A stretch of 37,746 nucleotides of DNA from Planctomycetota bacterium. GTDB lineage: Bacteria; Planctomycetota; JACQVX01. The notes under the pieces are model-generated. The model did no database searches and had not been told where the DNA came from. It was given only the letters and a program-made list of their open reading frames with translations. Numbering within the stretch: the first letter of the stretch is position 1; every line of letters begins with the position of its first letter. Location of the stretch: contig JACQVX010000084.1 in assembly GCA_016209495.1 (NCBI GenBank), positions 1 through 37,746 of the forward strand. Reading direction: 5' to 3'. This document shows, one piece after another, positions 3,469-37,489 of this stretch. The position numbers and the translations under genes were made by a program.

Positions 3469-4011
3469 ATGCAGAGCACCAGACCGCGCCGGACCGTCGC
3501 GGACTACCTCAGGCTTCACGAAGGGACGCTCGCCGAACTCATCGACGGGGAGATCCTCCTGTCGCCCTCGCGCCGCTATCGCCACCAGCGCATCGTGCAG
3601 GGCCTGTTCCTCGCCCTCCACGCCCACGTGAGCTCGACCGACCGCGGCGAGGTCTGCGTCGCGCCGCTCGACGTGCACCTGCCTTCCGGGGACGTCGTCC
3701 AGCCCGACGTGATCTACATCCCGCGGGGCCGTCGGGACCTCATCGGGGAGTGGATCCACGGTTCTCCGGCGTTGCTCGCGGAGGTCCTGTTCCCGGACCA
3801 CCGCGAGCGGGACGTGATCGTCCAGCGCGGCCTCTACGCGAGGAACGGCGTCGGCGAGTACTGGGTGGTGGACGACGAGCGGAAGGGCGTGGAGGTGCTG
3901 GTGCTCTCGGGCCAGGCCTACCGGACCCACGCCTGGTTCGAGGTCGGCGACGCGCTGACCTCGCCCACCCTGCCCGGCCTGTCCCTGGACCTGGGCGCGA
4001 TCTTCGCGTAG
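3469..4011 (+). CDS. Uma2 family (DUF820) endonuclease
   Basis: A 180-residue protein with the Uma2/DUF820 fold, a PD-(D/E)xK nuclease relative. Visible motifs in order are AELIDGEILLSPSRRYRHQR (N-terminal strand and active-site Glu/Asp region), VVQPDVIYIPRG (the PDV motif), LLAEVLFPDHRERD and GLYARNGVGEYWVVDDE, the family's ELYARxGVxEYWxVD signature. The length is normal for the family. The ATG at 3469 is preceded 6 nt upstream by GGAGG. The protein is intact; its substrate is unknown, since Uma2 proteins are widespread, multicopy and mostly uncharacterised. It runs convergently towards the release-factor-like gene, 16 nt away. It follows the RHS gene but does not resemble an RHS immunity protein. 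Confidence 0.88.
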   Translation: MQSTRPRRTVADYLRLHEGTLAELIDGEILLSPSRRYRHQRIVQGLFLALHAHVSSTDRGEVCVAPLDVHLPSGDVVQPDVIYIPRGRRDLIGEWIHGSPALLAEVLFPDHRERDVIVQRGLYARNGVGEYWVVDDERKGVEVLVLSGQAYRTHAWFEVGDALTSPTLPGLSLDLGAIFA

Positions 4012-6471: not shown

Positions 6472-6881
6472 GGCTCTCTGGCCTCCCTTCTCACAAAGGC
6501 CACCACCTCCGCCGTGGGGGTCCCGGGCCCGAAGATCCCCCGGAAGCCCGCCTCCCGCAGGGCCCCCTGGTCCTCCGTCGGGATCACGCCCCCGCAGAAG
6601 AGGAGGACCCGCTCCGCCCCCGCCTCGGCCAGGGCCCGCGCCACCCGCGGCAGGACGGTCATGTGGGCGCCGGAGAGGCTGGAGAGGCCCACGGCGTCCA
6701 CGTCCTCCTGCACGGCCACTCGGGCCACCGCCTCGGGGGACTGGCGGATGCCCGTGTAGATGACCTCCATGCCGGCGTCCCGGAGGGCGCTCGCCACGAC
6801 CAGGGCCCCGCGGTCGTGGCCGTCCAGGCCGCACTTGGCCACCAGGACCCGGATGGGGTCAACCCCGGCTCGCGCCCGCAC
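6468..6881 (-). CDS. mcmA2: methylmalonyl-CoA mutase, B12-binding subunit
   Basis: A 137-residue stand-alone cobalamin-binding domain. The base-off/His-on motif is present as DGHDRG (D20, H22, G25), followed by SSLSGAH and LLFCGGVIP, the other two cobalamin-contact loops. It partners the catalytic subunit encoded just upstream to isomerise (R)-methylmalonyl-CoA to succinyl-CoA. Many bacteria fuse the two parts; here they are separate. The GTG at 6881 is the first usable start and overlaps the end of the catalytic-subunit gene by 23 nt, so translation is probably coupled. The stop overlaps the epimerase start. Functional assignment is strong; a partner in another B12 mutase is less likely given the adjacency. 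Confidence 0.92.
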   Translation of the reverse strand: MRARAGVDPIRVLVAKCGLDGHDRGALVVASALRDAGMEVIYTGIRQSPEAVARVAVQEDVDAVGLSSLSGAHMTVLPRVARALAEAGAERVLLFCGGVIPTEDQGALREAGFRGIFGPGTPTAEVVAFVRREAREP

Positions 6882-8517
6882 CGTCGTGCTCCCCGAAGAC
6901 CCCCGCTAGGGTCTCCATGACCTCCCCCAGGGTGAGCCCGGCCTCCACGCCCTCCAGGACGTGGGGCACGAGGTTCTCCCCCGCCTCGCGGGCCGCGGCC
7001 TCCAGTCGGGCCACTAGGGCGGCCACCCGGGCCGGGTCGCGCCGCGCACGGGCCGACCGCAGGGCCTCCGCGCGCCGCCCCTGGACGGCCTGGTCCACCC
7101 GGAAGACCCCTGGCCGGGGCCCCTCTCCGGTGCGCCAGCGGTTCACCCCCACGACCACGCGTGCGCCCGACTCCACCTCCCGCTGGTGGCGCCAGGCGCT
7201 GTCGTGGATCTCCCGCTGGGGGTAGCCCTCCTGGATGGCGCGGACCATCCCGCCCATGGCCTGGATCCGCGCCAGGCATTCCCGGGCGCCGGTCTCCAGC
7301 GCGTCCGTGAGGGCCTCGACGTACGGGGAGCCGCCCAGGGGGTCGGCCACGTCGGCGACGCCGCTCTCGTGGGCGAGGACCTGCTGGGTCCGGAGGGCGA
7401 GCGTCGCGCTCTCCTCGGTGGGCAGGCCCAGGGCCTCGTCCCAGGCGTTGGTGTGAAGGGACTGGCAGCCGCCCAGGACCGCCGAGAGGGCCTGGAGGGC
7501 GACCCGCACCACGTTCAGCTCCGGCTGCTGGCCGGCCAGGGTGGAGCCGGCCGACTGGACGTGGAAGCGGAGCTTGCAGGCCGAGTCCGGGGCGCCGTGG
7601 CGCTCGCGGAGGAGCCGGGCCCAGAGGCGGCGGGCGGCGCGGAACTTGGCCACCTCCTCGAAGAGGTGGTTATGGGCATTGAAGAAGAACGAGAGGCGGC
7701 CCGCGAAGCCCTCCAGGTCCAGGCCCCGCCCCAGGGCGGCCTCCACGTAGGCCAGACCGTCCGCCAGGGTGTAGGCCAGCTCCTGCACCGCGGTGGCTCC
7801 CGCCTCCCGGATGTGGTAGCCGCTCACCGAGACGGGGTTCCACCGCGGGGCGTGCTCGGAGCACCAGGCGATGACGTCCGTCACCAGGCGCATGGACGGC
7901 CCCACCGGGAAGCGCCAGGTCCCGCGGGCGATGAACTCCTTCAGGATGTCGTTCTGAAGCGTACCGGCGAGACGCCCGGGCGGGATGCCGCGCCGGCGGG
8001 CCACCGCCACGTAGAAGGCCAGCATGACCATGGCCGAGCTGTTGATGGTCATGGAGGTGGAGATCCGCTCCAGGGGGAGGCCGTCCAGGAGGGCCTCCAT
8101 GTCCTCCAGGCAGGAGATGGGGACGCCGACCCGGCCCACCTCCCCGTCCGCCAGGGGGTGGTCCGAGTCGTAGCCGATCTGGGTCGGGAGGTCGAACGCC
8201 ACCGACAGGCCCGTCTGGCCAGCGTCCAGGAGCATCCGGAAGCGGCGGTTGGTCTCCTGGGCGCTACCGAAGCCGGCGTACTGGCGCATGGTCCATAGGC
8301 GGCCGCGGTACATGGTCGGGTGGACGCCCCGGGTATAGGGGAACTCGCCCGGCCCCTCGGCCTCGGTGGGGGCCGGGGCCTCGGCGGGGAAGTAACAGGG
8401 GGCGAGCTCGAGTCCCGAGGTCGTCAGGAACCGGGGCGATCGCTCCGGGTGCCCCCGGGCCGCCGGGGTCCAGACCTCGTCGAACCAGCGAGCGCCCGCG
8501 CGGGCCGGCTGGCTCAC
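6859..8517 (-). CDS. mcmA1: methylmalonyl-CoA mutase, catalytic subunit
   Basis: A 552-residue (beta/alpha)8 mutase chain without the C-terminal B12 domain. The substrate-channel segment TRGVHPTMYRGRLWTMRQY holds the active-site Tyr (Y70) and TMRQYAGF (about 76-83), which match methylmalonyl-CoA mutase rather than isobutyryl-CoA mutase. Downstream are GTLQNDILKEF, VSVSGYHIREAGATAVQE with the conserved His, and LHTNAWDEALGLPTEESATL. The GTG at 8517 was chosen because it overlaps the biotin-ligase stop (GTGA at 8514-8517) and gives the normal length. It catalyses the adenosylcobalamin-dependent step to succinyl-CoA together with the B12-binding subunit. No MeaB/ArgK chaperone gene accompanies it in this window. 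Confidence 0.92.
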   Translation of the reverse strand: MSQPARAGARWFDEVWTPAARGHPERSPRFLTTSGLELAPCYFPAEAPAPTEAEGPGEFPYTRGVHPTMYRGRLWTMRQYAGFGSAQETNRRFRMLLDAGQTGLSVAFDLPTQIGYDSDHPLADGEVGRVGVPISCLEDMEALLDGLPLERISTSMTINSSAMVMLAFYVAVARRRGIPPGRLAGTLQNDILKEFIARGTWRFPVGPSMRLVTDVIAWCSEHAPRWNPVSVSGYHIREAGATAVQELAYTLADGLAYVEAALGRGLDLEGFAGRLSFFFNAHNHLFEEVAKFRAARRLWARLLRERHGAPDSACKLRFHVQSAGSTLAGQQPELNVVRVALQALSAVLGGCQSLHTNAWDEALGLPTEESATLALRTQQVLAHESGVADVADPLGGSPYVEALTDALETGARECLARIQAMGGMVRAIQEGYPQREIHDSAWRHQREVESGARVVVGVNRWRTGEGPRPGVFRVDQAVQGRRAEALRSARARRDPARVAALVARLEAAAREAGENLVPHVLEGVEAGLTLGEVMETLAGVFGEHDGAGASRG

Positions 8518-19870: not shown

Positions 19871-21280
19871 ATGGGGATCCTCATCCGTCAAGGCGACGTC
19901 GTCACCGCCACCGATCGCTACACGGGGGACATCTACGTGGAGAACGGCCACGTGGCGGCCCTGGGCCGGGACCTCTCGGCCTTCCGGCGAGCGGGGGACG
20001 AGGTGGTGGAGGCCGGCGAACTCCTGGTCTTCCCCGGGGGGATCGACGCCCACACCCACATGGAGCTCCCCTTCATGGGCACGGTGAGCACGGACGACTT
20101 CCGGGACGGGACCGTGGCCGCGGCCCTGGGGGGGACCACCGGGATCATCGACTTCGCCATCCCCGCCAAGGGCGACGGCCTCCTGGACACCCTGGCCCGC
20201 TGGCACGAGAAGGCGAACGGAAGGGCGGTCGTGGACTACGCCTTCCACATGGCGGTGGTGGACTGGAACGAGCGGATCCGCGACGAGATCCCGCTCGTGG
20301 CGGAGCGGGGCGTCACCTCCTTCAAGACCTTCACCGCCTACAAGGGGGTCCTGGGGATCGACGACGGGCAGCTCTTCTCGATCCTGCGCCGGGTGCGCGA
20401 GGCCGGGGGCCTCGTGACCGTCCACGCGGTGAACGGCGACGTCCTCTCGGTCCTGGCCGAGGAGTTCGTGCGGGAGGGCACGACGGGCCCCGAGTACCAC
20501 TACCAGACCCAGCCCAACTGCATGGAGGCGGAGGCCACCCACCGCTCCTTCGCCCTGGCGGGCCTCGCCCGGCAGGGGGTCTATATCGTCCACATGACCT
20601 GCGGCGAGTCCCTGGACGAGCTCCGGCAGGCCCGCCGCGCGGGACTCACGGCCTACGGGGAGACCTGCGTACAGTACGCCCTCCTGGACGAGTCGCTCTA
20701 CCACAAGCCGGACTTCGAGGGGGCGAAGTACGTCCTCTCGCCGCCGCTCCGGTCGCGCAAGGACACGGAGGAGGTGTGGCGGGCCCTGGCGGACGGGACC
20801 CTCTCCACGGTGGCCACGGACCACTGCCCCTTCAACTTCCAGGGGCAGAAGGACCGGGGCCGGCCGCCCCTTGCGGACTTCCGCCGGATCCCCAACGGCC
20901 TGCCGGGGGTCGAGGAGCGCATGAGCCTGCTCTACACCTACGGCGTGGCCGCGGGGCGAATCAGCCTGAACCGCTTCGTCCAGCTCACCTCCACCAACGT
21001 GGCGCGGATCTTCGGCCTGCACCCCCGCAAGGGGACCATCGCCGTGGGGAGCGACGCGGACCTGGTCCTCTACGACCCGCGGTGGGAGGGGACCTACAGC
21101 GCGCGCCGCCAGGCCTCCCGCTGCGACACGAACGTCTACGAGGGCTGGAGGCAGCAGGGGCGGGTGGTCCACACGATCCAGCGTGGGCGCTTCCTGGTGC
21201 GGGACGGGCGCTTCGTGGGCGAGGAGGGCGGAGGCCGCTTCATCGAGCGCCCGCGCTTCGACCCCCTCCAGGCCCAGTAG
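19871..21280 (+). CDS. hydA: dihydropyrimidinase / D-hydantoinase
   Basis: 469 residues, full length. All binuclear metal ligands of the cyclic amidohydrolase are visible: H61 and H63 in DAHTHMELPF, the carboxylated Lys K152 in SFKTFTAYKG, H185 in VTVHAVNGD, H241 in YIVHMTCGES and D317 in STVATDHCPF. It opens dihydrouracil and dihydrothymine (or hydantoins) to N-carbamoyl amino acids, which the beta-ureidopropionase would then cleave. ELPFMGTVSTDDF next to the metal site is typical of dihydropyrimidinases rather than dihydroorotases or allantoinases. The ATG has an AGGAGG-type site, and the aldehyde dehydrogenase gene ends 9 nt upstream. Confidence 0.92.
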   Translation: MGILIRQGDVVTATDRYTGDIYVENGHVAALGRDLSAFRRAGDEVVEAGELLVFPGGIDAHTHMELPFMGTVSTDDFRDGTVAAALGGTTGIIDFAIPAKGDGLLDTLARWHEKANGRAVVDYAFHMAVVDWNERIRDEIPLVAERGVTSFKTFTAYKGVLGIDDGQLFSILRRVREAGGLVTVHAVNGDVLSVLAEEFVREGTTGPEYHYQTQPNCMEAEATHRSFALAGLARQGVYIVHMTCGESLDELRQARRAGLTAYGETCVQYALLDESLYHKPDFEGAKYVLSPPLRSRKDTEEVWRALADGTLSTVATDHCPFNFQGQKDRGRPPLADFRRIPNGLPGVEERMSLLYTYGVAAGRISLNRFVQLTSTNVARIFGLHPRKGTIAVGSDADLVLYDPRWEGTYSARRQASRCDTNVYEGWRQQGRVVHTIQRGRFLVRDGRFVGEEGGGRFIERPRFDPLQAQ

Positions 21281-21285
21281 GGCGC

Positions 21286-22158
21286 GTGGGGCAGACGCCG
21301 GGACACCCGGGGATTCCCGACCGCCTCGGCGCGCGGCTGGCCGAGGCCGCGCGGGCCGCTCGGGGGCTCCTGGGGGACCCCAGGCCCAGGGTGGGGCTCA
21401 TCCTGGGGTCGGGCCTGGGGGGGTTCGAGCGCCGGGTGGAGGGGGCCCGCTCCTGCGGCTACGGGGCCGTCCCGGGCCTGGTCCAGTCCACGGTGGAGGG
21501 CCACGCGGGCCGGCTGGTGGCGGGTCTCGTGGGGGGGGTCGAGACCCTGGTCCTGTCCGGCCGGCTGCACGCCTACGAGGGCCACCCGGTGGCCGACTGC
21601 GCCTTCCCCGCGCGGCTGGCAGCGTCCCTGGGGGTGCGGGGGCTCGTGCTCACCAACTCCGCCGGGGGGATCCGCGCGGACCTGTCCCCGGGGGACCTGA
21701 TGCTCATCGAGGACCACATGAACCTCTCCGGGCGCAATCCCCTGGTGGGCCCCCACGACGCGGCCCTGGGGCCGCGGTTCCCGGACATGACGGAGGCCTA
21801 CTCCCGCCGGTTGCGGGAGGCGGCCCTGGGGGCGGCGGCGGCCCTCGGGCTCCCGCTCGCCCGCGGGGTCTACGCGGTCCTGGGGGGGCCTTCCTACGAG
21901 ACCCCGGCCGAGATCCGCGCCCTGGGCGCCCTGGGGGCCGACGCGGTGGGGATGAGCACGGTCTACGAGGTGGTGGCGGCCCGCCAGATGGGGGTGGAGG
22001 TCCTGGGGATCTCCTGCGTGACGAACCGCGCCGCCGGGACGGGCAACGGGGCGCTCTCCCACCAGGAGGTCCTGGAGGTGGGGGAGCGGGTGCGGGGCGC
22101 GTTCGAGCGGCTCCTAGAGGCCGTGATCCCGCGGGTGGCTGCCGCCGTGGAGGGATAG
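21286..22158 (+). CDS. punA: purine nucleoside phosphorylase
   Basis: 290 residues of the trimeric PNP/MTAP family (NP-I). Motifs are VGLILGSGLGGFERRV (phosphate loop), STVEGHAG, SGRLHAYEGH with the conserved His, LVLTNSAGGIRADLSPGDLM, GGPSYETPAEIRAL, GMSTVYEVVAARQMGVEVLG and SCVTNRAAG (base-binding Asn). The reaction is phosphorolysis of inosine or guanosine to the free base and ribose-1-phosphate. The LTNSAGG and CVTN motifs favour 6-oxopurine specificity over methylthioadenosine. The GTG at 21286 lies 5 nt after the dihydropyrimidinase stop. Its bases would feed the phosphoribosyltransferase encoded at 25192. Confidence 0.9.
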   Translation: MGQTPGHPGIPDRLGARLAEAARAARGLLGDPRPRVGLILGSGLGGFERRVEGARSCGYGAVPGLVQSTVEGHAGRLVAGLVGGVETLVLSGRLHAYEGHPVADCAFPARLAASLGVRGLVLTNSAGGIRADLSPGDLMLIEDHMNLSGRNPLVGPHDAALGPRFPDMTEAYSRRLREAALGAAAALGLPLARGVYAVLGGPSYETPAEIRALGALGADAVGMSTVYEVVAARQMGVEVLGISCVTNRAAGTGNGALSHQEVLEVGERVRGAFERLLEAVIPRVAAAVEG

Positions 22159-22161
22159 GGC

Positions 22162-23487
22162 GTGGCCATCCTGATCGAGGACGCCTGGGTCGTCACCATG
22201 GACGCCGACCGGCGCGTGGTGCGGGGCTCGGTCCTCGTGGAGGGGGGGCGCATCGCCGCGGTGGGGGAGGTGGACCCCTCGGAGACGGAGGGGCCGGCGG
22301 TGGAGCGCATCGCCGCGGGGGGGCGGGTCCTCCTGCCGGGCCTGGTGCAGACCCACGTCCACCTCTGCCAGACCCTCTTCCGGAACCAGGCGGACGACCT
22401 GGAGCTCCTGGACTGGCTCTCCCGCCGGATCTGGCCCATGGAGGCGGCCCACGACGAGGCCTCCGTGCGGGCCAGCGCCCGGCTGGGGATCGCGGAGCTC
22501 CTGAAGGGGGGGACCACCACGGTCCTGGACATGGGGACGGTGCGCCACACGGGGGTCATATTCGAGGAGGCCCGCCGCATGGGCATCCGCGGGGCCTTCG
22601 GCAAGGTCATGATGGACCACCCGGAGTGTCCCGAGGGGCTGCGGGAGCCTACCGACGAGGTCCTGGCGGAGTGCGCCTCGCTGGCGGAGCGCTGGCACGG
22701 CCAGGCCGGGGGGAGGCTGCGCTACGCCTACGCCCCGCGCTTCGCGGTCTCGTGCACCGAGGGGCTGCTCCGCGAGACCGCGCGGCTGGCCCGCCGGGGC
22801 GGTTGCCTGGTGCACACCCACGCCTCGGAGAACCGGAAGGAGCTGGAGCTGGTGCGGCGGCTCCACGGCCGCGGGAACATCGAGCTCCTCGGGGAGCTGG
22901 GGCTCCTGGGCCCGGACTGCTGCATCGCCCACTGCGTCCACGTCACCGAGCGGGATATGGATCGACTGCGGGACTCGGGGAGCCACGTCCTGCACTGCCC
23001 CTCCTCGAACCTCAAGCTGGCCTCCGGCGTCGCCCCCGTGCCGGAGATGCGCCTCCGGGGCATCTCCGTCTCCCTGGGGGCCGATGGGGCCCCGTGCAAC
23101 AACAACCTGGACATGTTCACCGAGATGCGCCAGGCGGCCCTGGTCCAGAAGGTCCGCCTGGGCCCCACGGCCATGCCGGCCGCCGAGGTGGTGGCCATGG
23201 CCACCGTGGGCGGGGCCCGGGCCCTGGGCCTCGCCGGCGAGGTGGGTTCCATCGAGCCGGGGAAGCGGGCCGACCTGATCCTGGTGGACCTGGAGCGGCT
23301 ACACTCGGTGCCGGGGAACGACCTTTACGGGCGGCTGGTCTACTCGGCTCGCGCCACCGACGTGGTCCTCACCATGGTGGACGGGCGGGTGGTGGCCCGG
23401 GACGGGATGCTGCTGGTGGACGACGAGGCGGACGTGGTGCGGACGGCGCTGCGCGAGGCCGAGGCCTTGACGCGGCGCGTGGCCTGA
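22162..23487 (+). CDS. amidohydrolase, SAH/MTA deaminase or related purine deaminase (MtaD/SsnA type)
   Basis: 441 residues of the metal-dependent amidohydrolase superfamily. Ligands are H65 and H67 in VQTHVHLCQTLFRNQADDLE, H220 in VHTHASENRKE, H257 in IAHCVHVTE and D308 in SLGADGAPCNNNLDMFTEMR. The family includes MtaD, SsnA, guanine and 8-oxoguanine deaminases and TrzA. LLDWLSRRIWPMEAA and the GAPCNNNLDMF loop occur across several of these, so the substrate is not decided by sequence. With a PNP immediately upstream (3-nt gap) and a phosphoribosyltransferase downstream, a purine base or adenosine derivative is the likely substrate. GTG start at 22162. Confidence 0.82.
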   Translation: MAILIEDAWVVTMDADRRVVRGSVLVEGGRIAAVGEVDPSETEGPAVERIAAGGRVLLPGLVQTHVHLCQTLFRNQADDLELLDWLSRRIWPMEAAHDEASVRASARLGIAELLKGGTTTVLDMGTVRHTGVIFEEARRMGIRGAFGKVMMDHPECPEGLREPTDEVLAECASLAERWHGQAGGRLRYAYAPRFAVSCTEGLLRETARLARRGGCLVHTHASENRKELELVRRLHGRGNIELLGELGLLGPDCCIAHCVHVTERDMDRLRDSGSHVLHCPSSNLKLASGVAPVPEMRLRGISVSLGADGAPCNNNLDMFTEMRQAALVQKVRLGPTAMPAAEVVAMATVGGARALGLAGEVGSIEPGKRADLILVDLERLHSVPGNDLYGRLVYSARATDVVLTMVDGRVVARDGMLLVDDEADVVRTALREAEALTRRVA

Positions 23488-23680: not shown

Positions 23681-25195
23681 GTGCGCGGCCTCGCGAGGGC
23701 GGCCCTCCTGGGGCTGGCCGCGGCCGGAGCGGCGCTCGCCCAGACGGACGAGCGGGAGGCCTTCGCCCGCCGGCTGGACCCGCGGCGCACCGCGGACAAG
23801 TACGCGCGCAAGGACGCGGTGAAGGACCTCCGGGGGAAGAACGCCCCCTGGGCCACGGAACTGCTGCTCGGGGCCTTCCTGGACCCGGAGGCCATCGTCC
23901 GGGACTGGGCCTTCGAGACCCTGGAGGACGTCCCCGACGAGGGTTCGCTGGACCTCATCATCGGCGCCCTGCTCCACGCCGACGACTTCGTGCGTGAGAA
24001 CGTCTGCGACCTCCTGGGGCACCGGCGCTCGGCCGGGGCCGTGGGGCCGCTCCTGAAGGTCCTCGGGAAGTACCGGGAGACCGGGGCCCGCGCGGCGGCG
24101 GCCAGGGCCCTGGGGCGTATCGGGGACGCGGCGGCCTGGGACGGCCTGGAGGGGCGCCTGGGGAAGGACCGGGAGCCCCTGGTGGAGCTGGAGCTGCTCG
24201 AGGCCCTCTCCCGCATCGACGGTCCTCGGAGCGTGGACCGGCTCCTGGAGGGCTGCGCCTCGAAGGATTGGCAGGTGGCGGCGTGCGCCCTCCGGTCCCT
24301 GGCCCTGGTGGACCGGGGCCGGGGGTTCGAGCAGGCCCTGGCCCTGGCGGGCCACAAGGCCTGGCCCGTACGCTCCCACGCCATCGAGGTCCTGGGCGCC
24401 TCGCGGCGCAAGGAGGCCGTCGAACCGCTCATCGCGCGGCTCGGCGAGGAGGAGGGGCGGCTGCGCCACGACGCCTACATGGCCCTGGTGCGACTGACGG
24501 GCAACGAGGACCTGGACGCCACGCGGGAGGCCTGGGAGGGCTGGTGGCGTTTCAACAAGGACAGCTTCGACCCGGAGAAGGTCGCCGAGGGGGCCGACCG
24601 CAAGGGGAAGGAGACGACCCGTGTCAGCTACTACGGGGTGGAGGTCTTCAGCACCCGGGTGGGCTTCATCATCGACGGCTCGGGCTCCATGAAGGAGCCC
24701 ATGGGGGGCAGCTCGGAGAACAGGGATTCGCGTCGTATCGACGTGGCCCTGGCCGAGCTCCTCCGGACCGTGGACCTCCTGGAGGAGGAACGCCGCTTCA
24801 ACGTGTACGCCTACGGCACCGAACCGGTCCAGTGGCAGCCGCGGGTGCAGCAGGCCTCGCGCGCCAGCAAGGTGGCCTGCGCGAAGTGGCTCGAGCGCCT
24901 GCGCAACCCGGCGGGCTGGAGCAACCTCCACGACACGGTCCAGCGCTGCGCGGAGGACCCGGACCTGGACACGATCTTCCTCCTCTCCGACGGAGAGCCC
25001 AGCGTGGGGCGCTACAAGTTCCCGGACCGGATCTTGGAGAAGACGGAGGAGGTGAACCGCTACCGGAGGCTCCGGATCTACACCATCATGACGGCGGTCT
25101 TCGAGGGGGACGGCGCCGCCAACCGGGAGCGCAACGCCGTGGAGTTCCTCACGCGGCTGGCCGAGGGGACCGGCGGGGAGTTCCGGCGCAAGTGA
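23681..25195 (+). CDS. exported HEAT-repeat protein with C-terminal von Willebrand A domain
   Basis: 504 residues. A signal peptide (about 1-20, [13 protein letters not shown]) directs it to the periplasm. Residues 40-300 are HEAT-like helical repeats (for example [20 protein letters not shown] and [19 protein letters not shown]). The vWA domain begins near 318 ([20 protein letters not shown]) and has a complete MIDAS metal site: D332, S334, S336 in DGSGSM, T419 in NLHDTV and D437 in LLSDGEPS. It should bind a partner protein through a divalent cation. This HEAT-vWA arrangement recalls planctomycete proteins. The GTG at 23681 follows the small protein by 2 nt, and the stop overlaps the phosphoribosyltransferase start (GTGA). 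Partner unknown. Confidence 0.85.
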
Positions 25196-25734
25196 GGATC
25201 GCCCGGGAGGCCGAGCCGCCCATCGAGAGCCTGGTGGCCGCCGACCGCATCGCCGGGAGGTGCGCGGAGCTTGGGCGGGAGATCACACGGGACTACTCCG
25301 GGAAGGACCTGATCCTGGTGGGGGTCCTGAAGGGCTCCGTCATGTTCCTCTCGGACCTGATGCGGCACATCGACCTCCCGCTGACGGTGGACTACCTGCG
25401 GGTCTCCTCGTACGGGGACCGGACCGAGAGCGGGGGCGTGGTGCGCTTCGAGCTCGACCTCTCCCAGCCCGTGCGGGGCAAGCACGTCCTCATCGTGGAG
25501 GACATCGTGGACACGGGGCTCACCGTCCACTACCTCCTGAACAACCTGGCCACCCGCGAGCCCGCCAGCCTGAAGGTCTGCACCCTCCTGGACAAGCCCT
25601 CCCGCCGCCAGAAGGACGTCCCCATCGACTACCGGGGCTTCCAGGTCCCCGACACCTTCGTGGTGGGCTATGGACTGGACTACCAGGGGCGCTACCGCAA
25701 CCTGCCCTACATCGGGCGCGTCCCGGCCTCCTGA
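25192..25734 (+). CDS. hpt: hypoxanthine (guanine) phosphoribosyltransferase
   Basis: 180 residues, the normal size for bacterial HPRT. The PPi loop [16 protein letters not shown], the flexible loop [11 protein letters not shown], the PRPP motif [12 protein letters not shown] (E103, D104) and the base-binding [11 protein letters not shown] are all present. The enzyme turns hypoxanthine or guanine plus PRPP into IMP or GMP. The GTG at 25192 overlaps the vWA gene stop by 4 nt. Together with the purine nucleoside phosphorylase four genes upstream it forms a nucleoside-to-nucleotide salvage pair. Immediately downstream are two nucleotide cyclases, which use GTP and ATP. Assignment is firm. Confidence 0.94.
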
Positions 25735-25744
25735 GCGACGGCCC

Positions 25745-26746
25745 GTGCGGGACGAACGCAAGGTCGTGCGCTCCCTCAGCCTGATTTCCCAGGCCATCAA
25801 CTCCTCCGTCAGCCTGGAGCAGGTCCTGCGCCTCATCGCCATCGAGGCCGTGGGCCTCGTGGACGCGGACGTGTGCGCCATCATGCTCCTGGACGACACG
25901 CGGCAGAGGCTGGTCTTCTGCGAGACCTACGGCCTGACCCGGGAGGAGGTGGAGCGGATCTCCTTCCGCGTGGGGGAGGGGATCGCCGGGTGGGTGGCGG
26001 AGCGGGGCCTCCCGGCCCTGGTGGACGACGTCTCCCTGGACGCTCGCTGGGTCCCCAAGGACGACCAGGCGACGGCCACGCGCTCCCTCCTCTGCGTCCC
26101 CATGGAGGTGGCGGAACGGCCCATCGGGGTGATCAACCTCTCCCATTCCCAGAAGACGGGGGCCTTCGACGAGGCCGACAAGGACGTGGTCATCCTCCTG
26201 GCCAACCATATCGCGCAGAACATCGAGAAGTACCGGCTCTACGAGCTGTCCATCACGGACCCCCTCACCGGCGTCTTCAACTACCGCTACTTCCAGCACC
26301 AGCTCGAGAAGGAGTTCAAGCGGGTGCGCCGCTACAAGGGGGAACTGGCCGTGGTCATGGTGGACATCGACCACTTCAAGAGGCTGAACGACACCCGCGG
26401 CCACCCGGCGGGGGATCGGGTCCTCCGGGAGATGGCCGAGGTGCTCCGGGGCAACGTGCGCGAGGTGGACACCCTGGCCCGCTACGGGGGCGAGGAGTTC
26501 GTGGTCGTCCTCCCGGCCACCGGCCGCTCGGGGGCCGTGGAGATCGCCGAGCGCATCTGCAACACCATCGACGACCACCCGTTCCGCGGGGACGGGTCGG
26601 GGACCGGGACCCTGCACGTCACCGTCAGCCTGGGCGGCGCCGTGTGGACCCCGGACGTGGTGCGCCGGGACGAGCTCGTCCGCCGGGCCGACTCGGCCCT
26701 CTACCAGGCCAAGAAGGAGGGCCGCAACCGGGTGGTGTTCGTGTGA
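25745..26746 (+). CDS. GAF-GGDEF diguanylate cyclase
   Basis: 333 residues. An N-terminal GAF domain (about 10-170; VRSLSLISQAINSSVSLEQV, FRVGEGIAGWVAERGLPALV, GVINLSHSQKTGAFDEADKD) senses a small ligand or redox state. The GGDEF domain (about 175-333) has the active signature GGEEF (248-252), the metal-binding MVDIDHFKRLND and an intact allosteric I-site RxxD (R239 to D242) exactly five residues before it, so c-di-GMP product inhibition is expected. It is cytoplasmic with no membrane span. The GTG at 25745 was chosen because the coiled linker (RDERKVVRSLSL) starts there; an in-frame ATG at 25670 lies inside the hpt gene. Its stop overlaps the start of the adenylate cyclase gene (GTGA). Confidence 0.92.
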   Translation: MRDERKVVRSLSLISQAINSSVSLEQVLRLIAIEAVGLVDADVCAIMLLDDTRQRLVFCETYGLTREEVERISFRVGEGIAGWVAERGLPALVDDVSLDARWVPKDDQATATRSLLCVPMEVAERPIGVINLSHSQKTGAFDEADKDVVILLANHIAQNIEKYRLYELSITDPLTGVFNYRYFQHQLEKEFKRVRRYKGELAVVMVDIDHFKRLNDTRGHPAGDRVLREMAEVLRGNVREVDTLARYGGEEFVVVLPATGRSGAVEIAERICNTIDDHPFRGDGSGTGTLHVTVSLGGAVWTPDVVRRDELVRRADSALYQAKKEGRNRVVFV

Positions 26747-29262
26747 CCGAGCCCCCGGCCACGGCCGCTGGCGAACCGGGCCCGCGGGGGTCAGGGGAGG
26801 ACGCCTGCCGGCTGCTCCTGGTGGCGCCCGCGGGGACGTGCCGGGACGTGCTGGTCCCCCGGCTCTCGCGGGTGCGCGACGAGCTGGGGGTGGAGGTCTA
26901 CTACGCCGAGGACCCCGACGGGGCGCGGCGGATCCTCGACGACCTGGCGGCCCGCTCGGCGGTCCTGGACGTGCTCGTCTGCGACGGGGCCGTGGCCGGG
27001 GGCGGCCTGGGCCTCCTGGCGGAGTCCCGCGCCAGGCCGCTCGGGCCCGTGTTCCGGGTCGTCCTGGTGGACCGGGAGGACCGAGAGGCCATCCTCGCGG
27101 CCGCCGGTCGGGTGGAGGTCCACCGCGCGCTCGTGAAGCCGCTGGACGAGGGGGCCTTCGAGGAGTCCGTGAGGGCCTTCCTGGCGGGGGCGGCCCATGC
27201 GAGGGCCCTGGGGCGGGCCAACCGCAGCCTCACCACCATGCTCGACATCGCCAAGGCGATGAACTTCGAGAAGGACATGGACAAGCTCCTGGCCATGATC
27301 TCCACGCAGGCCACGGAGGTCATCGGGGCCGACCGCGCCACCATCTTCCTGCTCAGCCGCGACGGGACCGAGCTGGTGGCCCGGGTCAAGACGAAGGAGA
27401 AGGCCGCCATCCGGATCCGCCGGGACGCCGGCATCGCGGGCTTCGTCTTCACCACCGCCCAGCCGGTGAACATCCCGGACTGCTACGAGGACCCGCGCTT
27501 CAACAAGGAGGTGGATCGCCGCACCGGCTACCGGACGAGGAACCTCCTCTGCACCCCCATCAAGAACCTCCACAACGAGCCCATCGGCGTGATCCAGCTC
27601 CTCAACAAGGCCCGGGGTCCCTTCCACAGGGAGGACGAGCAGTTCCTGGAGATCTTCGGCTCCCAGGCCGCCGTGGCCATCGAGAACGCCTTCCTCTACG
27701 AGGAGATGCTGGAGAAGAAGCGCCTGGAGCGCACCCAGGCCACCATGCGCCGCTACGTCCAGGAGGGCCTCCTGGAGCAGATCAAGGAGGGGGCCGGGAA
27801 CCTGGACCTGGGGGGGGAGACGAAGCAGGTCTCGGTCCTGTTCTGCGACATCCGCGGTTTCACCGCCATGTCCGAGGCCATGGAGCCGGAGGCGGTCGTG
27901 GACATGCTGAACGACTACTTCACCCGGATGCTCGCCCCCGTCCGGGCCAACCACGGGGTCATCGACAAGTTCATCGGGGACGCCCTCCTGGCCATCTTCT
28001 ACGGGGACGAGCCGGCCGTGACCGCACGCAACGCGGTCCTGGCCGCCCTGGACATGCGCGCGGCCCTGAGGGAGTTCAACGAGCAGCGCCGCGTGCGGGG
28101 GTTGCCGGGGCTGGAGAACGGCATCGGGATCAACACCGGGCCGGTGGTGGCCGGGAGCATCGGGACCGAGCGCCGCAGGGACTACACGGTGATCGGGGAC
28201 ACGGTCAACACCAGCGCGCGGCTCGAGAAGGAGTCCAAGCAGGGGCGGCACACCCGGGTGGTGGTGAGCGGGGCCACCCTGGCGGCGGTGCGGCCCTTTG
28301 TCCAGGTGGAGGCCATGGCCGTGGAGGCCATACGCGGCAAGCAGCAGCGGGTGGAGGTCTATGAGCTCGTGGGGCTCCGCCCCGCGGCCGAGGTGAGGGA
28401 CGCGGTCCCGGCCCTGGGCCCCGAGGAGCGGGGCGCGGCCGTGGACTTCCTGGGCCGGCTGGAGGGGTCGGAGGCGACGGAGGCCCTGGTGGCCATCTAT
28501 CGCGGCGGGGACCCGGAGCTCGCCATCGCCGCCCTGAACGCCCTGGGGGCCTTCCGGCGCCGCTTCGACCGGGTGGTGCACGACTTCCTGGGGGCGGAGC
28601 TGGACCGGGCGGACCTCGACCCCCGGGTGCGCGCCAGCCTGGTGACCGCCGTGGGACGGGTGGGGGGGACGAGGCTCCTCGCGAGGCTCCGGGCGCTGGT
28701 CCACGACCAGGACGAGCGCATCCGGGCCAACACGGTCGAGGCCCTGGGCCGGCTGGAGGACGCCGAGGCCCTCCAGGGGATCCTGGAGCGGCTGGGGGAC
28801 GAGAACGGCCGCATCCGGGCCAACGCCGCCATCGCCCTGTGCCGCCGGGAGCCGGTGCGCACGGTGGAGGCCCTCGCGCGGACCCTGGAGGAGGCGGACC
28901 CGGCGCGCCGTTCCAGCGCCCTCTGGGCCCTGGGGGAGGTGGGGCGCCTCTTCGACCCGGCCTGTTCGGCCTTCCTCCTCTCGGACGAGGACGCGCAGAC
29001 GCGGCAGAACGCCCGGCGTGTCCTGGAGGGGGTGGTCCCGCTCCTGGTGGGGGCCCTCCAGGACAGGGACCGGAAGGTGGTCCGCCAGGCCGTGGCCGGC
29101 CTCGGGAGGATCCGTGACGCACGGGCCGTCGTCCCCCTGGTGCGGCTCCTGGCGGACGCGGACGCCAAGCTCGCCCTCGAGGTGGAGCGGGCCCTGCGGG
29201 CCCTGGGGGCCGCCGAGGAGGTGCTGTGGCTGGTGGGCAGGCTGCGGAGGAAGGGCGGGTGA
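26743..29262 (+). CDS. class III adenylate cyclase with receiver-like, GAF and HEAT domains
   Basis: 839 residues. Domains in order: a receiver-like domain (about 25-150) with a possible phospho-acceptor Asp in DVLVCDGAV and a Lys in LVKPLDE, but lacking the usual N-terminal DD pair; a GAF domain (about 161-325); a class III cyclase domain (about 355-520); and a long HEAT-repeat tail (about 560-839). The cyclase carries both metal Asp (D369 in FCDIRGFTAM, D413 in FIGDALLAIF), the adenine-selecting pair K409 and D486 (VIDKFIG, VIGDTVN) and the transition-state N489 and R493, so cAMP rather than cGMP is predicted. HEAT repeats after a cyclase are unusual and suggest control by, or docking to, another protein. 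GTG start overlapping the diguanylate cyclase stop. Confidence 0.92.
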   Translation: MTEPPATAAGEPGPRGSGEDACRLLLVAPAGTCRDVLVPRLSRVRDELGVEVYYAEDPDGARRILDDLAARSAVLDVLVCDGAVAGGGLGLLAESRARPLGPVFRVVLVDREDREAILAAAGRVEVHRALVKPLDEGAFEESVRAFLAGAAHARALGRANRSLTTMLDIAKAMNFEKDMDKLLAMISTQATEVIGADRATIFLLSRDGTELVARVKTKEKAAIRIRRDAGIAGFVFTTAQPVNIPDCYEDPRFNKEVDRRTGYRTRNLLCTPIKNLHNEPIGVIQLLNKARGPFHREDEQFLEIFGSQAAVAIENAFLYEEMLEKKRLERTQATMRRYVQEGLLEQIKEGAGNLDLGGETKQVSVLFCDIRGFTAMSEAMEPEAVVDMLNDYFTRMLAPVRANHGVIDKFIGDALLAIFYGDEPAVTARNAVLAALDMRAALREFNEQRRVRGLPGLENGIGINTGPVVAGSIGTERRRDYTVIGDTVNTSARLEKESKQGRHTRVVVSGATLAAVRPFVQVEAMAVEAIRGKQQRVEVYELVGLRPAAEVRDAVPALGPEERGAAVDFLGRLEGSEATEALVAIYRGGDPELAIAALNALGAFRRRFDRVVHDFLGAELDRADLDPRVRASLVTAVGRVGGTRLLARLRALVHDQDERIRANTVEALGRLEDAEALQGILERLGDENGRIRANAAIALCRREPVRTVEALARTLEEADPARRSSALWALGEVGRLFDPACSAFLLSDEDAQTRQNARRVLEGVVPLLVGALQDRDRKVVRQAVAGLGRIRDARAVVPLVRLLADADAKLALEVERALRALGAAEEVLWLVGRLRRKGG

Positions 29263-33416: not shown

Positions 33417-34364
33417 GTGGTGGAAGGGTGCATCGCCTTCGCCCTGGACGCGGAAGGCCGGCTGGCCTGGCAGGTGGGGTCCGATCGGGATATGCCCGAG
33501 GGCCTCGGCCTCGAGGGCGCCTTCGACGGCGATGGCGGTCTCTCGGCGGTCGTGGCCCGGGCCCTGGCCGGCGAAGCCCTGCGACAGGAAGTGGTCCTCC
33601 TGGGGAGGCCCCATGAGCTCTGGCTCCTGCCCAGGGGCGGGGGGGCCGGCACGGCGGCCCGCGGTGTCTGGGGCGTGATGCGGGGGGTCTCCCCGCGGGA
33701 GGAAGGGGGCGGCGAGGCCGGGCGGGGCGCGGAGGTGCTCGGGGCGGTGGAGCGGGAGCGGGAGCGGATCGCCCAGGACCTGCACGACGGCGTGGGATCC
33801 CTGCTGGCGGCGGCGAGCCTGGCTGTCCGCGACCTGAGGCGGCGGGGGGTCGGGGAGGCGGGGCCCCTCGAGGCCGTGGCCGGTCTGCTGGGGCAGGCCC
33901 TCGAAGGTATCCACGACCTGGGCGCCGGGCTCCTGGACGCGGACCTCGACCGCCTGGGGCTCGCGGGGGCGCTGGAGGCCTTCGTCCGGCGCGAGGTCCT
34001 GCCCCGCGGGCTCGCGTGCGACGTGGACCTGCGCTGCCGCGGAGGCGGGCCGCCCCGGGCGGTCGCCGTGCAGCTACTCCGCATCGCCCAGGAGGCCCTG
34101 CGCAACGCCGTCCGCCACTCCCGTGCGCGACGCGTGGCGGTGCGGCTGGAGGAGGACCGCGAGGCCGTCTGCCTTCGGGTCTCCGACGACGGGGTGGGGA
34201 TGCCGGCGGACCTGGAGGCCGCGGAGGGCCTGGGACTCCGCCTCCTCAGGGCCCGGGCCCGGGCCGCGGGCGGCCGTCTCGCGGTGGGCCGGGTCCCGGG
34301 CGGAGGCACCGAGGTCCGCTGCAGGGTGCCCCGGTCCTGGGCGCTCAGGCGGAGCGGGGTTTGA
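33417..34364 (+). CDS. NarL-type sensor histidine kinase (HisKA_3), cytoplasmic
   Basis: 315 residues. The first 100 form a small PAS-like input domain (IAFALDAEGRLAWQVGSDRD, LWLLPRGGG). The dimerisation helix has H123 in RIAQDLHDGVGSLL, the HisKA_3 signature. The ATP domain shows the N box with N230 (AQEALRNAVRHS), G1 D257xG259xG261 (SDDGVGM) and a G2-like GLGLRLLRARARAAGG. No membrane span is present, so the signal is internal. The GTG at 33417 was chosen; a second GTG lies at 33420. The response regulator gene follows 38 nt later. The pair does not contain a sigma-54 activator domain, so it cannot by itself drive the sigma-54 promoter at 35367. Confidence 0.87.
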   Translation: MVEGCIAFALDAEGRLAWQVGSDRDMPEGLGLEGAFDGDGGLSAVVARALAGEALRQEVVLLGRPHELWLLPRGGGAGTAARGVWGVMRGVSPREEGGGEAGRGAEVLGAVERERERIAQDLHDGVGSLLAAASLAVRDLRRRGVGEAGPLEAVAGLLGQALEGIHDLGAGLLDADLDRLGLAGALEAFVRREVLPRGLACDVDLRCRGGGPPRAVAVQLLRIAQEALRNAVRHSRARRVAVRLEEDREAVCLRVSDDGVGMPADLEAAEGLGLRLLRARARAAGGRLAVGRVPGGGTEVRCRVPRSWALRRSGV

Positions 34365-35071: not shown

Positions 35072-35288
35072 GGGATTCCCCTGGACCCGAATCAGTCCTG
35101 GCCCGATAGCAGCCTGGCGAGCGAGTCTCCTAGGATGCGTCCGCTCGATCTCCGGGGGAGGGGGATGCGTCATGGGGGGACCGACCCTGGAGGCGTGGCT
35201 TCTTCGGGTTGAGCGGGCATCGCCTCCCTCGTTCTGGAAGTCGGCGCACGGAGTCGGTTCCCGGGTCACGGGGAGACGAGCAGACGCT

Positions 35289-35315
35289 GCGAGGGTCGAT
35301 CAAGACAGGCCTCGC
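35289..35315. promoter_or_regulatory. inverted repeat, possible activator site
   Basis: GCGAGG (35289-35294) and CCTCGC (35310-35315) lie about 80-105 nt upstream of the predicted sigma-54 start, within the range where enhancer-binding proteins usually sit. Six-bp symmetry alone is weak evidence. Confidence 0.25.
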
Positions 35316-35366
35316 GTTCTCGGCCACCTGCGGCATCGTCGTCCGAGATCTGGCCGAGCGCTCGCC

Positions 35367-35381
35367 TGGCACTCGCCTTGC
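35367..35381 (+). promoter_or_regulatory. sigma-54 (RpoN) promoter of the gas-vesicle accessory operon
   Basis: TGGCAC (35367-35372), five bases, TTGC (35378-35381): a full match to the -24/-12 consensus, with GG and GC separated by exactly 10 nt. Transcription would start near 35393, about 80 nt before the first gene. An activator of the AAA+ type is required and is not encoded in the window. Confidence 0.75.
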
Positions 35382-35393
35382 CTCTTGCCTCCT

Positions 35394-35448
35394 ACAGGCC
35401 GAAATGGGGCGGCCGATGACGAGAAAGGCAAGCTGGCTTTCGGCCTGT
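35394..35448 (+). promoter_or_regulatory. 11-bp stem-loop at the predicted 5' end of the gas-vesicle mRNA
   Basis: ACAGGCCGAAA (35394-35404) pairs perfectly with TTTCGGCCTGT (35438-35448) across a 33-nt loop. The stem starts within about 1 nt of the start site predicted from the sigma-54 promoter and ends 13 nt before the GGAGGGG ribosome-binding region, so it could stabilise the 5' end or affect translation. No known riboswitch family is recognised. Confidence 0.6.
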
Positions 35449-35472
35449 CCTACCAGACAGAACGGAGGGGCC

Positions 35473-35994
35473 ATGGGGCGCAGGCGTCAATCCGAGCAAG
35501 GCTCGGGCGATGTCGGCCTGGGTGGGATGTTCCGGAGTCTTGGTGGCTTCCTGGACTTCCTGTCGGACCTCGCCGAGAAGGCAGGAGAAGAGGGCGGCGA
35601 GTTCAAGCGATCCGGCGAGCTCGGCGACGAGAAGAAGGGCGTCAAGGCGGTCTACGGCTTCTCGGTCCGCGTGGGCGGTGGCGGCAAGCCGCTCATCGAG
35701 AACTTCGGGAACGTGAGGGACAACGGCCAGGGCGCGGTCGTGGAGGAGGCGCGCGAACCAATGGTCGATGTGTTTGATGAAGGTGATCACCTGACCGTGG
35801 TGGCGGAGTTGCCCGGGGTCGGTGCGAACGACATTCGTTTCGAGGTCAAGGAGGACGTGCTGAACCTGAGCGCCACCCGTGGTGATCGCAAGTATCGCAA
35901 GGAGGTCCTGCTCCCCTCGGCAGTCCGCGCGCAGGCAGCCACATCCTCGTACCGAAATGGCGTCTTCGAGATCAAGCTGCCGAAGGCTAAGTAG
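35473..35994 (+). CDS. gvpH: gas vesicle GvpH-like small heat-shock protein (Hsp20)
   Basis: 173 residues. The N-terminal part (GGMFRSLGGFLDFLSDLAEK, then KKGVKAVYGFSVRVGGGGK) matches the leader of Hsp20 proteins found in bacterial gas-vesicle clusters. The alpha-crystallin domain follows: EPMVDVFDEGDHLTVVAELP, GVGANDIRFEVKEDVLNLSA, then SSYRNGVFEIKLPKAK. The I-x-I tail motif is not obvious. It should chaperone gas-vesicle subunits during assembly. The ATG at 35473 follows GGAGGGG; in-frame upstream ATGs (35209, 35417) lie before or inside the predicted stem-loop. First gene after the sigma-54 promoter. Codons such as GAT, GTT and CGT are more frequent here than upstream, which suggests transfer of the cassette. 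Confidence 0.85.
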   Translation: MGRRRQSEQGSGDVGLGGMFRSLGGFLDFLSDLAEKAGEEGGEFKRSGELGDEKKGVKAVYGFSVRVGGGGKPLIENFGNVRDNGQGAVVEEAREPMVDVFDEGDHLTVVAELPGVGANDIRFEVKEDVLNLSATRGDRKYRKEVLLPSAVRAQAATSSYRNGVFEIKLPKAK

Positions 35995-36017: not shown

Positions 36018-36842
36018 ATGACGGTGGAAGTCGGCAGCGGGCAGGTCCTGTATCTCTACGGCGTCGTTCCCCAAGGCCAGCCGCTACCGGCGAGCGAGGT
36101 CGCCCCCCTCCAGGGCGTTCCGTTCTCATCCCTCGTTGCCGTCGTCGAGCCCGTTCCCCTGAGCGAGTTCTCGACCGAGACGCTCGAGCAGCGACTCCAG
36201 TGCATCGATTGGGTGGCTCCGCTGGCGCGAAGGCACAGCGCCGTGCTGAACGACGTCATGCAGCACGGGCCCGTCGTGCCCGCCCGCCTCTGCACCCTGT
36301 TCAGCAGCGCCGACGCACTGATCGAGTCGCTCGCGGAGAACGAGCAACGGTTCCGAGACGCGTTGAGCGCGCTCAGGGGACGCGAGGAGTGGGGCCTCAA
36401 GGTCTTCTGTCACGAGGAAACCCTTCGTTGCACGAGCTGTTCGGGCGACGCCCAGGTGAAGGCACTCGATGCAGCGGCCGCCACGGCGAGCCCGGGCCAG
36501 GCGTTTGTGGTCCGCAAGAGACGCGATGCTCGTCTGGCGGAGGTGGCGTCCGCGCGGATCAACGAGGTTATGGATGAGATCCTTGACGCCCTGGGCTCCG
36601 TTGCCACCGACATCCGTCTCAGGTCCTTGCTCTCCGGAGCGGCGACCGGGCGGCGCGAGGCGATGGTCATGAACGCCGCCCTGCTCGTGGACATCACGGC
36701 CTCCATCGCGCTTGTCGCCACGACCGAGGAGCTGGTCTCGCGCCTCTGCGAGGAGGGCCTTGTCGTCGAGCTCACGGGCCCCTGGCCGCCCTACAGTTTC
36801 TGCGACGACGACTCGGCAGTCCCATCGGAGGAGGCGAGGTGA
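36018..36842 (+). CDS. gvpL: gas vesicle protein GvpL/GvpF
   Basis: 274 residues, the usual length for GvpF/L. The family hallmarks are the opening strand VLYLYGVVPQG, SSLVAVVEPVPLSEF, the WVAPLARRHSAVLNDVMQHG and VVPARLCTLFSSADAL segments, EEWGLKVFCHEE, the long central helices, and the C-terminal ELTGPWPPYSFCDD. GvpF and GvpL proteins bind the shell protein GvpA and help nucleate assembly. It lies 23 nt after the Hsp20 gene, and its stop overlaps the next start (GTGA at 36839-36842). An unusual CxxC pair (CTSCSGD) sits after residue 140. The shell gene gvpA is not in the window and should lie further downstream or elsewhere. Confidence 0.93.
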   Translation: MTVEVGSGQVLYLYGVVPQGQPLPASEVAPLQGVPFSSLVAVVEPVPLSEFSTETLEQRLQCIDWVAPLARRHSAVLNDVMQHGPVVPARLCTLFSSADALIESLAENEQRFRDALSALRGREEWGLKVFCHEETLRCTSCSGDAQVKALDAAAATASPGQAFVVRKRRDARLAEVASARINEVMDEILDALGSVATDIRLRSLLSGAATGRREAMVMNAALLVDITASIALVATTEELVSRLCEEGLVVELTGPWPPYSFCDDDSAVPSEEAR

Positions 36843-37489
36843 CCGTGGAGGGGGCGCGCGGACCGATCTGCCTCTACGCGGTGGTACCCGCCAGCCAGGC
36901 ACATGCCCTCCGCGCGAGTGACCTTCGCGACGTCGTGTGCGGCCCCATCGCGGCGCTCGTCGGCAGGCGGGGGAGGGACGCGGGGCGACGCGGCGCCCTT
37001 CGGCACGACCGCATCGTGGGTCGAGCCCTCGATGTCTGCTCGTCAGTCGTGCCATTCCGCTTCGGGACCGACGTTCGTTCCGAGGGGGAGGTCCACGACG
37101 TCCTGGCGCTGAATCTGGATTCGCTTCCCCGTCATCTCGAGCATTTTCAGGGCCGTGTGGAGATGGGCCTCAAGGTGAAGCTTCCCCCTGCCGTGATGTC
37201 GGCGGTGTTATCCTCGGGCCTCGACCGGGTTCGCGTCCTTGCCCCAGGACCCGCGGACCGGCGGGAGCGGCTCATTCGAGTCTCCACCGGGCAGGTGTTC
37301 GAGGGAAACTACCTCGTCCGGCGCCGGGCCGTCGGTGCCTTCTGGTCGGCGGTGGAGGAGGTCCGCACGGCCCTTCCGGAGCTGCCCATCCTTGGGAGCG
37401 GTCCCTGGGCCCCGTACAGCTTCTGCGATTTCGCGCTCCAGCCGGTCCTCGGAGGCCAAGACCGGCGGAGCGCCTTCCAGACTCAGTGA
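36839..37489 (+). CDS. gvpF: second, shorter GvpL/GvpF family protein
   Basis: 216 residues, shorter than its neighbour. It has CLYAVVPASQAHALR, the H-D-x-I-V-G helix (ALRHDRIVGRALDVCSSVVP), FRFGTDVRSEGEVHDVL, EMGLKVKLP and the family end GSGPWAPYSFCDF. The central helical section is reduced, which explains the length. The GTG at 36839 overlaps the stop of the preceding gene. Tandem GvpF/L paralogues are common in gas-vesicle clusters and probably co-assemble. The letter F or L cannot be assigned reliably from sequence alone. Confidence 0.9.
   Translation: MTVEGARGPICLYAVVPASQAHALRASDLRDVVCGPIAALVGRRGRDAGRRGALRHDRIVGRALDVCSSVVPFRFGTDVRSEGEVHDVLALNLDSLPRHLEHFQGRVEMGLKVKLPPAVMSAVLSSGLDRVRVLAPGPADRRERLIRVSTGQVFEGNYLVRRRAVGAFWSAVEEVRTALPELPILGSGPWAPYSFCDFALQPVLGGQDRRSAFQTQ

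Follow-up and report, generated by a model that had tools for sequence, protein, structure and literature searches.

Overlapping genes for a predicted diguanylate cyclase and a predicted adenylate cyclase beside purine genes in a Planctomycetota bacterium

Introduction

The Anabaena adenylate cyclases CyaB1 and CyaB2 have a class III cyclase domain preceded by a GAF domain with the NKFDE motif, CyaB2 possessing a tandem GAF pair. CyaB2 activity is raised when its GAF domains bind cAMP, and the NKFDE motif is kept in most characterised cyclic-nucleotide-binding GAF domains (PMC4411481). Among GAF-GGDEF enzymes, Dcsbis (PA2771) contains an RxxD I-site, which is blocked by a loop of its own GAF domain; the NKFDE motif of this GAF is degenerate and the protein binds neither cAMP nor cGMP (PMC4937426). 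The Leptospira protein Lcd1 ties cAMP to c-di-GMP (PMC8846402), and cAMP is reported to activate this GAF-GGDEF enzyme (PMC8846402; PMC5932348). The GAF domain of DcpA from Mycobacterium smegmatis is responsive to GDP (PMC8846402). No paper describing an operon of hpt with a diguanylate cyclase (DGC) gene, or of a DGC gene with a cyclase gene, was found in the literature searched.

Here, a DGC gene and an adenylate cyclase (AC) gene lying side by side in a 37,746-nt stretch of DNA from a Planctomycetota bacterium (contig JACQVX010000084.1, the window) were analysed together with their neighbours and with related loci from the same phylum.

Results

The DGC gene (25745–26746, GTG start at 25745, TGA stop at 26746) encodes a GAF-GGEEF protein of 333 aa and is located on the forward strand, as are the cluster genes and domains described below. 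The AC gene (26743–29262, GTG to TGA) encodes a class III cyclase of 839 aa composed, in this order, of a receiver-like front, a GAF domain, the cyclase domain and a HEAT-repeat tail. The two genes share the sequence GTGA (26743–26746), which contains the AC start and the DGC stop, so the 4-nt overlap reported in the first-pass annotation was found as described. The overlap has good support, since no further in-frame ATG, GTG or TTG occurs between the GTG at 26743 and the first strand of the receiver-like fold. The sequence AAGGAGG is located about 22 bases 5' of the AC start; this spacing exceeds that of a standard ribosome site and would fit termination–reinitiation at the AC start. The stop codon of the gene for a HEAT-VWA protein (23681–25195; HEAT_2 2e-29, VWA_3 6e-6, the latter slightly under its curated cut-off) and the start of hpt likewise overlap by GTGA, so the DGC/AC overlap is not special and tight packing is ordinary in this cluster.

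The gene order upstream of the DGC gene is that of a purine-nucleoside phosphorylase (21280–22158, start approximate; NF006054 1e-96), a 5'-deoxyadenosine deaminase-type amidohydrolase (22162–23487; NF005557 2.9e-180), a small ORF, the HEAT-VWA gene and hpt, encoding hypoxanthine phosphoribosyltransferase (25192–25734; TIGR01203 2.8e-63), with 10 bases separating the end of hpt from the DGC start. In the profile search, the purine enzymes, the deaminase among them, scored over their family cut-offs. Judging by the family names, the three enzymes could form a route from 5'-deoxyadenosine through 5'-deoxyinosine and hypoxanthine to IMP. A scan for sigma-70 promoters and terminators revealed nothing clearly beyond chance level. 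Farther out, the window encodes an RHS-repeat protein (390–3383, 1.4e-53), after which comes a gene resembling Uma2 nucleases (3469–4011), and, downstream of the pair, a histidine kinase with HisKA_3 and HATPase_c domains (33417–34364). Two GvpL/GvpF gas-vesicle genes (36018–36842, 3.7e-54, and 36839–37489, 1e-26) share 4 bases, and an Hsp20-like domain is encoded at 35209–35994.

In the DGC, Pfam detected a GAF_2 domain (aa 22–161, E 7e-23) and a GGDEF domain (aa 170–329, E 3e-47). The I-site REVD (aa 239–242; 26459–26470) and the active-site GGEEF (aa 248–252; 26486–26500) are present at the canonical 5-residue spacing, in agreement with the earlier description of an active GGEEF and an intact I-site. 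Both the GG(D/E)EF active-site motif and the RxxD motif, a feature of product-inhibited members, are therefore in place, and the protein would act as a GAF-GGDEF enzyme under product inhibition through the I-site. The complete NKFDE motif of cyclic-nucleotide-binding GAF domains of the CyaB2/PDE type is missing: by sequence reading, the DGC GAF segment GVINLSHSQKTGAFDEADKD retains N, F and D and has lost K and E. This GAF domain probably mediates dimerisation. In architecture, I-site and degenerate NKFDE motif the DGC resembles Dcsbis (PMC4937426). It shares the GAF-GGDEF arrangement with Lcd1 (PMC8846402), a likeness drawn from its described architecture; Lcd1 is reported to be activated by cAMP, whereas the DGC lacks the full motif.

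The catalytic domain of the AC (27820–28365) was recognised as class III (Pfam Guanylate_cyc, E 1.5e-25). All six canonical positions are filled, as the first-pass annotation had stated: the metal-binding D369 and D413, the adenine-pocket K409 and T482, and the transition-state residues N489 and R493. Five of these residues are invariant among 38 aligned cyclases and T482 is nearly so. Class IIIb cyclases of the adenine type combine Lys with Thr, and Thr at position 482 represents the class IIIb form. D480 was considered as the adenine-specificity residue and rejected, as it varies among relatives; T482 is the correct position. The AC would act as a homodimer making cAMP. Both enzymes thus look catalytically intact by their residues, so loss of activity in either domain does not appear to offer grounds against the earlier description. 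Neither appears to span the membrane, as was also claimed before: the top 19-residue hydropathy windows (2.01 in the DGC, 1.73 in the AC) fall inside folded domains, namely the GAF domain and the receiver-like fold, respectively.

The AC GAF domain (27274–27681, Pfam GAF 4e-23) is clearly related to that of the DGC (local score 138, shuffled mean 30); the presence of GAF domains in both proteins was confirmed. Unlike the DGC GAF, it has the complete NKFDE motif (NK at aa 288–289, F at 294, DE at 298–299), and the cyclic-nucleotide motif is thus confined to the AC. Its best match among solved structures was CyaB2 (1ykd, 2e-42), followed by the PDE5 GAF domains, with PDE2 lower in the list. The strict NKFDE pattern was present in 4 of the 38 aligned cyclases. 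By analogy with Anabaena CyaB2, this domain probably binds cAMP and boosts the activity of the AC itself; such feedback, predicted from the motif, is the strongest testable prediction of the analysis.

For the N-terminal part of the AC (26797–27216), no Pfam match was obtained and receiver matches by sequence were weak only. A single-sequence AlphaFold2 model (m7733cb527ba8) of moderate confidence (pLDDT 68, pTM 0.65) displayed the (beta-alpha)5 order, and Foldseek matched it to HupR (TM 0.72), the XynC REC domain (0.71) and 3kcn (0.67), all of them receivers, 3kcn being deposited as a Rhodopirellula baltica adenylate cyclase. The modelled fold therefore suggests a receiver, as proposed from the sequence earlier. 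A full phosphorylation site is lacking: the receiver Asp and the Lys-Pro pair could be read in the sequence, but neither the acidic pair that should follow strand 1 nor the Thr/Ser, which makes phosphorylation doubtful and points to a probably degenerate pseudo-receiver.

The C-terminal tail of the AC (28423–29259) consists of HEAT repeats in three stretches (Pfam HEAT_2 2e-26), also as anticipated. Together with the receiver-like front it probably serves protein interaction. The AC of the window was the only one of the 38 aligned cyclases to contain such repeats; a HEAT-tailed cyclase is an unusual architecture, the DGC and the AC being otherwise of known kinds. The idea that the tail had been copied from the adjoining HEAT-VWA gene was unsupported, the local similarity being weak (8e-7 over 42 aa), and no HEAT protein of the same genome matched the tail at 1e-8. 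A contig search for AC relatives gave a single match, in a Wallbacteria MAG (22% over the cyclase end and part of the HEAT region), which was uninformative. Compared with CyaB2, the AC has one GAF domain instead of a tandem pair, with the receiver-like front and the HEAT tail in addition. A cyclase of another genome, G080 (locus L068), has Response_reg (1e-28), GAF and Guanylate_cyc domains in the same order as the AC and 36% identity with it across the GAF and cyclase domains; in contrast to the AC, its receiver is clear by sequence, it is devoid of a HEAT tail, its NKFDE motif is incomplete and no DGC gene adjoins it. FHA domains are common in GAF cyclases of the phylum (22 of the 38 aligned), and one cyclase in the genome of the window (L080, 3065–7129, open frame of 1,355 aa) has FHA and GAF domains.

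The recurrence of the pair, for which the first-pass annotation had proposed a survey of genomes, was examined in loci chosen within the phylum by similarity to the window proteins; they constitute a sample, not a census. No GGDEF gene was found near the cyclase in any of 76 loci from other genomes (38 and 38 with a cyclase domain, flanks usually of 4–5 kb and shorter at contig ends), nor near any of 14 other cyclase matches in the genome of the window. DGC relatives were searched in 392 genomes of the phylum, the compared genomes including no second member of the class of the window. The best were those of G080 (48%) and G304 (44%), the remainder being at 34–39%. No cyclase gene adjoined the DGC relatives; at one locus (L051) the other strand encoded a cyclase at a distance of about 4 kb.

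In G080, the DGC gene begins 5 bases after hpt, in the same hpt–DGC order as in the window, and no cyclase is encoded in the 275 bases left on the contig after it. In G304 (locus L048), purE (7629–8126) and a GAF-GGDEF gene (6661–7632) overlap by 4 bases, with no cyclase. When the 30 best hpt loci were inspected over about 1.5 kb, a GGDEF gene was present at those of the window and G080 and at none of the other 28. The hpt–DGC order thus rests on two genomes, and the G080 contig ends soon past the DGC gene.

The genome of the window (4.08 Mb) contains about 16 GGDEF and 15 cyclase matches. From these numbers and about 3,900 genes, an adjacent co-directional pair was estimated to arise between about 0.04 times per genome, if the DGC gene must come first, and 0.09 times, if both orders count; the estimate ignores the clustering of signalling genes. 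Plausible readers or breakers of both messengers exist in the same genome, which has 15 cNMP_binding matches and, among the proteins scanned, a single GGDEF-PilZ protein and a single GGDEF-EAL protein.

Discussion

The reading that seems probable is that of the end of a purine-salvage cluster bearing two signalling enzymes, both catalytically intact and each regulated separately. The pair was absent from all related genomes examined and is therefore probably a local gene arrangement, not a recurring signalling module. In the few relatives found, the neighbours of the DGC are purine genes and not cyclases. Of the earlier statement that a translationally coupled pair making two messengers is unusual, the word unusual is fair for the sample; the notion of a coupled two-messenger unit was not supported by recurrence, the lack of which the first-pass annotation had named as grounds for refutation and which was observed throughout the loci sampled. 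Co-transcription, if the genes form an operon, would set the dosage of both enzymes jointly.

A chance origin, in which two unrelated signalling genes came to share a transcription unit while having no functional tie with one another or with purine salvage, is rather unlikely. The number of GGDEF and cyclase matches (an estimated 4–9% for one such pair), the lack of recurrence in the sample and the second 4-nt overlap in the cluster speak for it, but the overlap implies shared expression and the hpt–DGC order is retained in one distant genome, G080. This retention, along with purE in G304, places hpt or purE beside a DGC gene in three genomes and is consistent with the DGC GAF domain reading a purine nucleotide, so that c-di-GMP would track salvage flux; the GDP response of DcpA offers a precedent (PMC8846402). 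Such a purine-status sensor is nevertheless unlikely, given the small number of genomes and the missing DGC gene at most hpt loci.

Control of one enzyme by the messenger of the other received no support in the analysis. A dedicated relay, in which the DGC GAF domain binds cAMP from the AC and c-di-GMP synthesis is thereby turned on, in the manner reported for Lcd1 (PMC8846402; PMC5932348), is possible but unsupported, and we regard it as quite unlikely. The adjoining, overlapping genes and the relatedness of the two GAF domains agree with it; however, the DGC GAF domain has a degenerate NKFDE motif, Dcsbis with such a motif binds neither cyclic nucleotide (PMC4937426), and the closest DGC relatives have no cyclase next to them. 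A lineage-specific two-messenger unit built on purine salvage, with a self-activating AC co-produced with the DGC and cross-control through the GAF domains, is highly doubtful; if it were true, cAMP and c-di-GMP would rise jointly with purine recycling.

On present evidence, the pair mainly illustrates that gene overlap by itself does not make a signalling module. If co-regulation were real, the locus would be a compact case of one transcript setting the synthesis of both cAMP and c-di-GMP, tied to purine recycling. The AC, which combines one NKFDE-containing GAF domain with a HEAT tail, is a clean subject for asking if a single GAF domain can suffice for cAMP feedback.
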